A stretch of 64,000 nt of DNA from the NCBI RefSeq assembly GCF_000622145.1, contig NZ_JHWH01000001.1:99678-163677 (forward strand). Reading direction: 5' to 3'. The notes under the pieces were generated by a model that worked only from the letters and a program-made list of their open reading frames with translations, searched no databases and was not told the origin of the DNA. Made by a program: the position numbers and the translations under genes. This document shows, in pieces, positions 6,002 through 53,709 of this stretch (position 1 is the first letter of the stretch; each line of letters opens with the position of its first letter). Source of the stretch: Paracoccus yeei ATCC BAA-599. GTDB taxonomy: Bacteria; Pseudomonadota; Alphaproteobacteria; Rhodobacterales; Rhodobacteraceae.

Positions 6002-6583
6002 TTATTCGGCCTTGACCGCCTCGACGGTGATGTTGATTTCGACCTCGTCCGAGACGGCGGGGGCGAACTTCGCCAGGTTGAATTCCGAACGCTTGATCTC
6101 GGTCTCGGCGTCGAAGCCGGCGACTTCCTTGCCGCTCATCGGGTGGGCGGCGATCTGCTTCAGGTCGACCTCGAGGACCACCGATTTGGTGACGCCGTTC
6201 AGCGTCAGGTCGCCCGTGACCTTGGCTTCGTCGTCGTCATCTGGCTCGACCTTGGTCGACTTGAAGGTGGCGACGGCGCTGGCCTGGTCGGTGTTGAAGA
6301 AATCGGGTCCGAACAGGTGCTTGTCGAGCTCGGGCGAAACGGTACGCAGGCCCGACAGCGGGATCGTCGCCTCGACGCTGGAGTTGGCGGGGTTCTCGGC
6401 GTCCAGCATCAGCTTGCCGGTGACGCCGTTGATGATGCCCGTGCTGGTCGAAAAGCCCATGTGCTGATAGTCGAACACCACCTGGCTGTGCGACGGATCG
6501 AAGTCATAGGCCACCGGCTCGGCCAGGGCGGCCGTGGCGCCGAACGCGGTCGCAAGGGCGAAGGGGACGACGAGGATCTTCAT
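6002..6583 (-). CDS. periplasmic YceI-family lipid-binding protein
   Basis: A 193-residue protein with a signal peptide (MKILVVPFALATAFGATAALA). The mature part shows the YceI pattern: YDFDPSHSQVVFDYQHMGFS at the start, the GKLMLD strand, and the paired VTGDLTLNGVTKSV. YceI proteins form an elongated lipocalin-like barrel that binds isoprenoid chains in the periplasm. The ATG at 6583 was chosen because it has AGGAG 6 bases upstream and begins the signal peptide; a longer frame further upstream has no such support. It is transcribed alone, with its own terminator. Confidence 0.85.
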   Translation of the reverse strand: MKILVVPFALATAFGATAALAEPVAYDFDPSHSQVVFDYQHMGFSTSTGIINGVTGKLMLDAENPANSSVEATIPLSGLRTVSPELDKHLFGPDFFNTDQASAVATFKSTKVEPDDDDEAKVTGDLTLNGVTKSVVLEVDLKQIAAHPMSGKEVAGFDAETEIKRSEFNLAKFAPAVSDEVEINITVEAVKAE

Positions 6584-6740
6584 CGGGAACTCCTGATTGA
6601 AATGGTCACTGGGAATGGTGACAGGAAATGCGCCAGTCGCAACAAGGGTTTCCGCCATTCTGCCTGACAATTTCGTGTGGCTTCGCCCCGGCGAAACACT
6701 GCCGCCGCAGGGGCGAAAGCCGGCGCGGACGGGTTTTGCC

Positions 6741-6768
6741 TTGCAATCGCGCCCGGTGCCGTTATAAG
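6741..6768 (+). promoter_or_regulatory. probable promoter of the rpsF-rpsR-rplI operon
   Basis: TTGCAA (6741-6746) and TATAAG (6763-6768) are spaced by 16 bases and point to rpsF. Transcription would begin near 6775, giving a leader of about 90 bases. Confidence 0.6.
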
Positions 6769-6775
6769 GCTGCAT

Positions 6776-6836
6776 CCTTCCGCATACACGAAACCGGCGC
6801 AGCCTCTCGTGACGGGGCGCGGAAGGTTGCCCCGTC
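6776..6836 (+). promoter_or_regulatory. structured leader of rpsF: hairpin whose loop can pair upstream (candidate pseudoknot)
   Basis: An 8-bp stem GACGGGGC (6811-6818) with GCCCCGTC (6829-6836) encloses a 10-base loop. Eight of the loop bases, GCGGAAGG (6819-6826), are the exact complement of CCTTCCGC at 6776-6783, near the predicted transcript start. The element could form a pseudoknot or switch between two folds. Leaders binding the S6:S18 protein pair are known to autoregulate rpsF mRNAs in many bacteria. Whether this is such a leader is inference. Confidence 0.5.
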
Positions 6837-6866
6837 GTTGAAATGCGCCCTGAAAAAGGAACAGAC

Positions 6867-7322
6867 ATGCCGCTTTACGAGCATGTGCTGATCGCCCGCC
6901 AGGACCTGTCGAACACGCAGGCCGAAGGGCTGATCGAACATTTCTCGACCGTGCTGGCCGACAACGGCGGCAAGGTGGTCGAGAACGAATACTGGGGCGT
7001 GCGCACCCTGGCCTACAAGATCAACAAGAACCGCAAGGGCCATTACGCCTTCCTGCGTTCGGACGCGCCCTCGGCCGCCGTGCAGGAAATGGAGCGTCTG
7101 GCCCGCCTGCATGACGACGTCATGCGCGTGCTGACCGTCCGCGTGGACGAGCACAAGGAAGGCCCCTCGATCCAGATGCAGAAGCGCGACGAGCGCGAGC
7201 GCGGGGATCGTGGCGACCGCGGTGACCGTGGCGAACGCCGCGACCGTGACGGCGACCGTGGTGATCGCGGTGGCCGGGATGGCGAGCGCCGCGAGCGCCG
7301 CGACCGCGACGACCGGAACTGA
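6867..7322 (+). CDS. rpsF: 30S ribosomal protein S6
   Basis: A 151-residue protein. The first about 100 residues match S6 ([34 protein letters not shown]). It binds S18 on the platform of the small subunit. The last about 45 residues are a low-complexity tail of Arg, Asp and Gly (repeats of RGD/RGER), which E. coli S6 replaces with a glutamate tail. The ATG at 6867 follows an AAGGA site and matches the conserved N-terminus; an earlier in-frame ATG at 6843 is not conserved. First gene of the operon with rpsR and rplI. Confidence 0.95.
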
Positions 7323-7339
7323 GGGAAAGGACGCATATC

Positions 7340-7567
7340 ATGGCCAACAAACCCTTCTTCCGCCGCCGCAAGGTCTGCCCGTTCTCGGGCGATAACGCCC
7401 CCGCGATCGACTACAAGGACACGCGCCTGCTGCAACGCTACATCAGCGAACGCGGCAAGATCGTGCCGTCGCGCATCACCGCCGTCTCGGCCAAGAAGCA
7501 GCGCGAACTCGCGCGCGCCATCAAGCGCGCCCGCTTCCTCGCCCTGCTTCCCTATGCCGTGAAGTAA
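7340..7567 (+). CDS. rpsR: 30S ribosomal protein S18
   Basis: A 75-residue basic protein with the S18 core: [20 protein letters not shown], then [19 protein letters not shown] and [20 protein letters not shown]. It pairs with S6 on 16S rRNA. It is 17 bases after rpsF and 12 bases before rplI, the usual order. Confidence 0.97.
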
Positions 7568-7579
7568 GGAGAGACGAAC

Positions 7580-8161
7580 ATGCAAGTCATCCTGCTGGAA
7601 CGTGTGGCCAAGCTGGGCCAGATGGGCGAAGTCGTGAAGGTCAAAGAGGGCTTCGCGCGCAACTACCTGCTGCCGCAGGGCAAGGCGCTGCGCGCCTCGG
7701 AAGCCAACATCAAGGCCTTCGAGGAACGCAAGGCGGAACTCGCCGTGCGCAACGACGAGTCCCGCGCCGAGGCGCAGAAGCTGGCCGAGAAACTGGACGG
7801 CCAGACCTTCGTCATCATCCGCTCGGCTTCGGACGCCGGCGCGCTTTACGGTTCGGTCACCCCGCGTGACGCCGCCGAGGCCGCTAACGCCGAAGGCTTC
7901 GCCGTCGAGCGCCGTCAGGTCGTGCTGACGGCGCCGATCAAGGACCTGGGCCTGCACGAGGTCCGCGTGCACCTGCACCCGGAAGTCGATGCGACCATCC
8001 GCCTGAACGTCGCCCGTTCGGCCGAGGAAGCCGAACTGCAGGCTTCGGGCAAGTCGATCCAGGACCTGGCCGCCGAGGAAGACGCGGCAGCCGATTTCGA
8101 GATCGCCGAACTGTTCGAGGACATCGGCTCGGCCGGCCGCGACGAGGACGAGGCGAACTGA
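7580..8161 (+). CDS. rplI: 50S ribosomal protein L9
   Basis: A 193-residue protein; the N-terminal rRNA-binding lobe ([19 protein letters not shown], then [14 protein letters not shown]) is typical. A long connecting helix and the C-terminal lobe follow. The protein is about 40 residues longer than E. coli L9 because of an acidic, alanine-rich tail ([16 protein letters not shown]), common in alphaproteobacteria. It ends the operon, and a terminator follows. Confidence 0.96.
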
Positions 8162-53118: not shown

Positions 53119-53616
53119 TCAGGCGGCAACCGGCTCGGGCTGCTTTTCCGAGGCCTGGGTCGTCGTCAGGCGCGGGGTATCGACCCCGGCCTTGGACGCT
53201 TGCGCGATCTCGATGCGGCGGGGTTTCTTCTCTTCCGGAATTTCGCGCTTCAGCGACACCTCCAGAAGACCATCCACCAGCGAGGCACCCTCCACCCGCA
53301 CATAGTCGGCCAACTCGAACCGACGCTCGAAGCTGTCGGCGGGGATGCCGCGATGCAGGTATTGGGCCTTCTCGTCCCCTTCCTTGCGGCCGGTGACGAT
53401 CAGCACATTGCCATTCTGCGTCAGGGTCAGATCGCTCTCGCGGAAGCCGGCGACCGCCATGGTGATGCGGTAGCTGTCTTCATCGACACGCGCGATGTCA
53501 TAGGGGGGCCAGCTGTCGGTCCCATCCCTGCGGGACGCCGCCTCAAGCGCGGCCAGGATCCGGTCGAAGCCAACGCTCGACCGGAAAAGCGGCGTAAAGT
53601 CAAACGTGGTTCTCAT
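53119..53616 (-). CDS. small heat-shock protein, IbpA-like Hsp20
   Basis: A 165-residue protein of the IbpA type: RTTFDFTPLFRSSVGFDRI at the start, then NGNVLIVTGRKEGDEKAQYL and FELADYVRVEGASLVDGLL in the alpha-crystallin domain. The start at 53616 has GGAGG and fits IbpA; an ATG further upstream (53649) is less likely. A heat-shock-like promoter lies about 100 bases upstream. It differs enough from the neighbouring Hsp20 to be an old paralogue. Confidence 0.9.
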   Translation of the reverse strand: MRTTFDFTPLFRSSVGFDRILAALEAASRRDGTDSWPPYDIARVDEDSYRITMAVAGFRESDLTLTQNGNVLIVTGRKEGDEKAQYLHRGIPADSFERRFELADYVRVEGASLVDGLLEVSLKREIPEEKKPRRIEIAQASKAGVDTPRLTTTQASEKQPEPVAA

Positions 53617-53709
53617 AGCCACATCCTCCATTGAGCAATATGGGTACAAGCATCTGATATTGCCGGTTTATCCGGCCCAGGCACCCATCAGGGCCACCTG
53701 CGAAAATGC

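Follow-up and report, generated by a model that had tools for sequence, protein, structure and literature searches.

The leader of rpsF in Paracoccus yeei ATCC BAA-599 contains a three-helix pseudoknotted fold, and comparison of leader sequences confirms that this fold is conserved in the rpsF leaders of the family to which the organism belongs (Rhodobacteraceae/Paracoccaceae, here called the family). It lies in the window, by which we mean the whole stretch of 64,000 nucleotides that was analysed (contig NZ_JHWH01000001.1, positions 99,678 to 163,677), and all coordinates below count from its first letter. Judging from its sequence and by analogy with known leaders, the fold is probably a lineage-specific regulatory leader of the Rhodobacteraceae/Paracoccaceae, by which the S6:S18 heterodimer is predicted to repress its own operon, rpsF-rpsR-rplI.

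A pseudoknotted fold conserved in rpsF leaders of the family

The bases CCTTCCGC at 6776-6783 are exactly complementary to GCGGAAGG at 6819-6826, which occupies 8 of the 10 loop bases of a perfect hairpin (GACGGGGC at 6811-6818 with GCCCCGTC at 6829-6836). The initial annotation had reported both this complementarity with the loop and the perfect 8-mer character of the two helices (A:A' and B:B'), and both descriptions are exact. A third covarying helix, C (6796-6801 with 6844-6849), encloses hairpin B. Helix A crosses B and C, and covariation supports the crossing helices, as expected for an H-type (loop-tail) pseudoknot (Table 1). The last helix of the fold ends 17 nt 5' of the rpsF start codon in the window.

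Table 1. Features of the rpsF leader and its operon in the window.
Feature	Position	Strand	Basis or remark
Divergent YceI-family gene	6002-6583	-	The leader is the interval between this gene and the rpsF start at 6867
Probable -10 hexamer, TATAAG	6763-6768	+	Sequence; loose -10 pattern across leaders
A, 5' arm of pseudoknot helix (CCUUCCGC)	6776-6783	+	Covariation
C, 5' arm of outer helix, GGCGCA	6796-6801	+	Covariation
CYCUCGU, internal-loop strand (Y = U or C at 6805)	6804-6810	+	Conserved; candidate protein-recognition site
B, 5' arm of hairpin (GACGGGGC)	6811-6818	+	Covariation
A', hairpin-loop strand pairing with 6776-6783 (GCGGAAGG)	6819-6826	+	Covariation
B', 3' arm of hairpin (GCCCCGUC)	6829-6836	+	Covariation
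UGAA, strand opposite CYCUCGU	6839-6842	+	69 of 69 leaders
C', 3' arm of outer helix, UGCGCC	6844-6849	+	Covariation
Shine-Dalgarno region of rpsF, AAGGAA	6856-6861	+	Sequence; outside the conserved fold
rpsF (ribosomal protein S6)	6867-7322	+	PF01250
rpsR (ribosomal protein S18)	7340-7567	+	PF01084; 63% identity to E. coli S18 over 68 residues
rplI (ribosomal protein L9)	7580-8161	+	PF03948 and PF01281

From the position of the TATAAG hexamer, transcription probably starts near A6774. A strict promoter scan did not call this hexamer and reported no promoter for the leader; across the 69 leaders aligned below, a loose -10 pattern lies 5-8 nt upstream of the A arm in 36 and is absent in 33. An intrinsic terminator scan of the leader region found none on the plus strand, its sole match being on the minus strand. 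Among the products of the operon, S6 as the query has 100% identity to Paracoccus aminovorans over the 106 residues searched, and alignment with E. coli S18 shows that the S18 of the window retains the AIKRAR segment. This segment is the site of K60 and R63, the RNA-binding residues of E. coli S18 according to the accessible part of PMC4647458, although the ribosome would demand its retention in any case. S6 continues past its domain (Pfam match to residues 4-92 of 151) into a long C-terminal tail of RGD/RD-rich repeats, encoded at 7195-7320. Far downstream in the window is another RNA element, a ROSE RNA thermometer (RF00435, 54.4 bits) on the minus strand at 53610-53700.

To judge how often such a structure arises by chance, we scanned for a composite of two perfect 8-mers with bounded spacers. 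The window contains exactly one on the plus strand, which is the 6776-6836 structure, and none on the minus strand. In 20 dinucleotide shuffles of the whole window, scanned on both strands, there were 8 composites in total, in 8 of the 20 shuffles (about 0.4 per window), whereas 20,000 shuffles of the 95-nt leader produced the composite 4 times. The earlier view that two such helices are unlikely by chance therefore holds locally, within the leader, but not window-wide, where the event is not very improbable. By itself the coincidence of two 8-mers is weak evidence on the scale of the window, and it is the comparative evidence that is decisive.

We assembled 140 rpsF leaders, comprising the window and 139 of 140 loci from Paracoccus and other genera of the family (L134 was left out, its start codon having escaped the pattern used); the loci are the best-scoring S6 matches, namely the best 30 of 116 genus genomes that had a match, 80 of 589 confirmed stretches and 30 of 287 family genomes that had a match. 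After removal of the window's own genome (L001) and of six leaders that lack the internal-loop anchor described below (L080, L110, L113, L116, L120 and L137), the remaining 133 leaders were dereplicated to 69 and aligned with MAFFT on sequence alone. All three helices covary in this alignment. In helix A, 92.6% of cells are paired and 6 of 8 pairs show both-side changes; the corresponding values are 91.1% and 7 of 7 pairs for helix B, and 81.2% and 6 of 6 pairs for helix C, which is shifted by one base in leaders reading GAAGCCGCC and whose outermost pair is unformed in 28 of the 69. Together the three helices have 88.8% of cells paired, compared to 38.0-50.7% in slid controls, and none of 500 shuffles was as high on any of five measures.

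To take shared ancestry into account, we built a tree with FastTree from 120 distinct leader stretches, ran 300 simulations that redistributed the substitutions of each column, and counted changes of both bases on a single branch with the pair kept: there are 43 such events in A, 38 in B and 13 in C, against simulation maxima of 9, 10 and 3, respectively. A stricter test, which compared every pair of columns with the tree null in ignorance of the structure, is less favorable: E < 0.05 was reached by just three pairs, all in B, while the two best pairs of A stood at E = 0.09 and 0.23 and C pairs were not in the list. The five top-scoring pairs that it lists are, however, all predicted pairs.

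We built a covariance model, R1, from the nested helices only (C, a UCG:UGA extension, and B), so that A:A' is absent from it, and it matched 54 of the 54 sources given, which were the window and 53 loci fetched later. Two of the later loci (L207 and L213) repeat a training leader and another two (L243 and L244) are identical to each other, leaving 50 distinct new leaders, none identical to a training row. In these, 388 of 400 A:A' cells are paired, and each of the 8 pairs shows both-side changes–for example, TCCTTCGC:GCGAAGGA in L197 and ATCTCCGCC:GGCGGAGAT in L228. The 33 new leaders least like the training rows have 253 of 264 cells paired, and again all 8 pairs changed on both sides; over 53 distinct rows, including the window and the repeats, 97.2% of cells are paired.

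Taken alone, energy-based folding is uninformative for this leader. The minimum-energy fold of the window leader without a pseudoknot (-32.9 kcal/mol) pairs UCCUU at 6775-6779 with AAGGA at 6856-6860. Thermodynamic folding of the whole leader is no better than that of shuffles (z -0.69 to -1.15), the isolated hairpin alone standing out (z -3.49). RNAalifold, which cannot represent pseudoknots, recovered hairpin B and the UCG:UGA extension but placed some of the A arm opposite some of C. Between A' and B', the linker measures 5 nt at the median over 123 rows (repeats included) and only 1-3 nt in the window. This is short for a full pseudoknot helix of 8 bp, so fraying of some pairs is possible, and A and B in the window may not form all 16 of their pairs simultaneously.

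The initial annotation had proposed a candidate pseudoknot, or else a switch, in this leader. Its pseudoknot is borne out by the covariation of A:A' and B:B' across leaders of the family, and the lack of covariation that it named as a refutation was not seen when family leaders were compared. A switch between the two helices finds no such backing, because A and B use different bases and both are conserved. Its structural proposal was thus right about two helices and incomplete, having missed helix C and the conserved internal loop.

Distribution and comparison with known S6:S18 leaders

R1 has one match apiece in 181 of 198 genomes of the family. In all 32 R1 loci that we inspected (L196-L227), the rpsF start lies 13-20 nt past the end of the model. 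Of the 17 family genomes without a match, four (G147, G180, G261 and G314) also had no rpsF match, and one (G212) was missed even though its leader (L117) belongs to the training set, so a number of genomes are lost to the strict filters. In a class-wide sample, R1 matched 4 of 278 genomes; these four are all members of the family, and the other 274 had no match. Of another 61 loci, taken from E. coli, the RF02893 set, other Alphaproteobacteria and the odd members of the family, only four family members gave good R1 matches. Four leaders that lie outside the alignments (L134, L116, L110 and L080) have good R1 matches. An order-level S6 search of 61 genomes returned members of the same family only, and so gained no outgroup.

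Within the family there are a few unusual leaders. By eye, L120 (G193) keeps the helices (A as CTCCCC:GGGGAG, B, and C), with CAATCG in place of CTCTCG, and has no R1 match. Two AT-rich family members, L113 (G209) and L137 (G148), have rpsF leaders without the motif, and these look truly different; L137 has a weak R1 match of 11 bits on the minus strand.

The Rfam family for S6:S18 leaders, RF02893 (RpsF_leader), gives the leader of E. coli a score of 110 bits and has no match in the window at 6680-6900 even at E <= 10, which is the outcome of a comparison that the initial annotation had suggested. Under stricter filters it matched none of 100 family genomes, and in 289 genomes of the class it had no match above its cut-off and one below. 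RF02893 is narrow, however: among 14 control genomes E. coli alone matched, so failing this model says little about the wider S6:S18 motif. Scans of the window's leader against Rfam, both at gathering thresholds and at E <= 10, returned chance-level matches to unrelated families only, and at gathering thresholds no Rfam family matches the loci of 12 relatives. In a search for resemblance to 16S rRNA, a degenerate 16S pattern gave zero throughout (0 of 1 own genome and 0 of 96 class genomes); probably the 16S sequences are missing or the pattern is wrong, and these zeros carry no weight. The suggestion that this might be a lineage-specific form is upheld: RF02893 does not match, and R1 is present in 181 of 198 genomes inside the family but in 0 of 274 elsewhere in the class.

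There is nevertheless a likeness to RF02893 at the level of layout. Both motifs are upstream of rpsF in an operon with rpsR, and both have the same topological order of 5' tail, outer stem, inner hairpin with a tail-pairing loop, and outer stem. In the known leader, according to the accessible parts of PMC10931766 and PMC4647458, CCUU pairs with the Shine-Dalgarno sequence and CCG is presented in a bulge. The corresponding stem of RF02893 (H1, CCUU with the Shine-Dalgarno AAGG) is not seen in the window's motif, whose stem C uses other bases, and the motif is without the 3'-side CCG bulge, having stem C and CYCUCGU/UGAA instead. Because it shows neither the CCUU:Shine-Dalgarno stem nor the CCG bulge, we do not file it as a member of RF02893; conversely, R1 finds no match in the E. 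coli leader or at the other RF02893 loci. The comparison with the widespread S6:S18 complex-binding motif of Matelska 2013 and Fu 2014, made through those same parts of PMC10931766 and PMC4647458, is similar: the operon and the presumed ligand are the same, and both motifs place an unpaired, C-rich strand between a stem and a hairpin, but the defining CCG bulge is not conserved in the window's motif and the Shine-Dalgarno sequence is outside its fold.

Alphaproteobacterial leaders from outside the family (L142-L171) have a classical look, most having CUCCUUGCC... and GCCAUAAGGAG-like ends that resemble the classical S6:S18 leader. By pattern counts in the alphaproteobacterial leaders outside the family with the best 30 of 277 S6 scores, a CCUUGCC-like strand is present in 20 of 30, and CCR lies just 5' of an AAGG-like sequence in 27 of 30 (CCA in 23 and CCG in 4).

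Among the papers listed by our literature search there was no description of the window's motif or of a pseudoknot in an rpsF leader, though Matelska 2013 or Fu 2014 may describe such a pseudoknot. Another related case is the Chlorobi S6:S18 r-leader of Eckert and Weinberg 2020 (PMC7247131), which in the accessible part of that paper is also lineage-restricted (reported only from Chlorobi), also belongs to the rpsF operon and was assigned to S6:S18 by operon context. The same part of the paper remarks on the 'conspicuous absence of a S6:S18 r-leader in Alphaproteobacteria' and mentions unpublished promising motifs. The window's motif fits this gap, and so may already be known to that group. 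In Sinorhizobium, the RNA sra29 was judged in 2007 to be a probable rpsF leader, with no structure given in the accessible part of the report (PMC2245857).

A candidate recognition loop and its possible role

The bulge that separates C from B has CYCUC as its conserved strand, part of the internal-loop strand CYCUCGU that faces UGAA. CYCUCGU has zero exceptions in the 69 aligned rows, but these rows had been selected by the anchor [CT][CT]CTCGT. The anchor is missing in 6 of 139 leaders, of which three (L080, L110 and L116) still match R1. TGAA is found 3' of the anchor in 133 of 133 anchored leaders, and CTCGT and TGAA are both present in 54 of 54 R1 matches; L116 reads CGAA at the UGAA position. 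Given the selection by the anchor and the three R1 matches that lack it, the loop is almost, but not absolutely, fixed. According to RNAalifold, UCG of CYCUCGU may pair with UGA at 6839-6841, a pairing whose invariance yields no covariation support. A CCG is present shortly 5' of the loop anchor in only 103 of 133 leaders, and it is not in the bulge between B and C. We consider the CYCUCGU/UGAA loop a likely protein-binding site. A pairing between CYCUCG and the Shine-Dalgarno sequence was also considered and was rejected, there being no species-matched complementarity between the two across leaders.

In E. coli, S6:S18 regulates the same operon via its leader, mainly at translation, according to the accessible part of PMC4647458. 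Since the window's motif is in the same place and before the same genes as the known S6:S18 leader, it most likely works like one. Excess S6:S18 would bind the conserved internal loop and stabilise the knotted fold, which, ending 17 nt before the start codon, would then hinder loading of the 30S subunit, with less translation of the whole operon as the result. The pseudoknot would also keep the hairpin in place and mask the 5' end, so mRNA stability is perhaps affected too. Because the Shine-Dalgarno sequence is outside the conserved fold, the repression step in this scheme is a guess.

One alternative gives the Shine-Dalgarno sequence a direct part: the A arm (UCCUU) would pair either with the hairpin loop, leaving the Shine-Dalgarno free (on), or with the Shine-Dalgarno AAGGA itself (off), and S6:S18 would tip the balance. 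The known leader does pair CCUU with its own Shine-Dalgarno, the minimum-energy fold of the window makes exactly this UCCUU:AAGGA pairing, and at least 5 pairs between A and the Shine-Dalgarno are possible in 35 of 49 distinct Paracoccus leaders. Outside Paracoccus, however, 5 pairs are possible in only 9 of 79 leaders, and the complementarity is not species-matched, because permuted combinations of A and Shine-Dalgarno sequences are as complementary as the true ones (the true value was equalled or exceeded by 176 of 200 permutations for the 69 leaders, and by 100 of 100 both for the 49 Paracoccus leaders and for the 79 others). We therefore regard such an on/off switch as improbable. Slightly less improbable, though still unlikely, is that the same fold binds some other ligand (S18 or S6 by itself, L9, or a factor that is not ribosomal) or mainly protects the 5' end of the mRNA. 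The operon does encode L9, and A begins 2 nt from the putative 5' end, but S6:S18 is the established ligand for the rpsF operon elsewhere, and an internal loop that hardly varies, set between helices that covary, points to a site of specific recognition and not to mere protection of an end. The least credible explanation by far is chance complementarity in a GC-rich leader with no RNA function at all, which could account for a composite in a 64-kb window (about 0.4 per shuffled window) and for a leader that folds no better than its shuffles, but not for the strong covariation in the 69 leaders and in those fetched later. Regulation by S6:S18 through the conserved fold is thus the reading that we favor.

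A similar pseudoknot in gammaproteobacterial leaders

We also examined gammaproteobacterial RpsF leaders and found a covarying pseudoknot between the 5' tail and a hairpin loop (L141 at 315-421, and L173-L193), which does not appear in Rfam's nested structure line. The set consists of 21 leaders, made up of RF02893 loci and E. coli. Two of a group of 22 loci were set aside, L185, which is above the cut-off and before rpsF, and L194, which is below it and not before rpsF; L172, from a different scan, is likewise below the cut-off and not before rpsF and was set aside too. Tail:loop pairs include TCAGCCGA:TCGGCTGA in E. coli (334-341 with 372-379 of L141), TTAGCCAC:GTGGCTAA in L182 and CTCAGTCA:TGACTGAG in L187. 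Over the 21 leaders, 92.7% of cells are paired and there are both-side changes at 5 of 6 pairs. On four of five measures none of 500 shuffles came as high; the exception is further pair types, which 131 of the 500 reached. In addition, 8 double-change events were counted, against a null maximum of 5 in 500. At least 6 pairs can form in 17 of the 21 leaders, but not in L176, L177, L180 and L190. L185 lacks the pairing at the homologous place, so if it is counted the pseudoknot is present in 17 of 22. The E. coli rpsF study (PMC4647458) is not among the papers in which 'pseudoknot' and 'rpsF' co-occur, and the founding papers (Matelska 2013 and Fu 2014) or the Rfam seed may describe the knot.

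A tentative reading, somewhat less likely than not, is that the pairing of 5' tail with hairpin loop is an old and overlooked core of proteobacterial S6:S18 leaders, that of E. coli included, and that the window's family kept the knot while swapping the CCG site, a mimic of rRNA, and the Shine-Dalgarno stem for a new recognition loop, CYCUCGU/UGAA. The E. coli rpsF leader is predicted to hold a pseudoknot, which is testable in existing lacZ fusions. For the window's own family, our results provide a covariation-supported candidate S6:S18 leader, defined by coordinates and by a covariance model. It is a case of one regulated operon that seems to employ a different recognition loop. If the shared core is real, one protein complex would be served by one knot with two recognition solutions.
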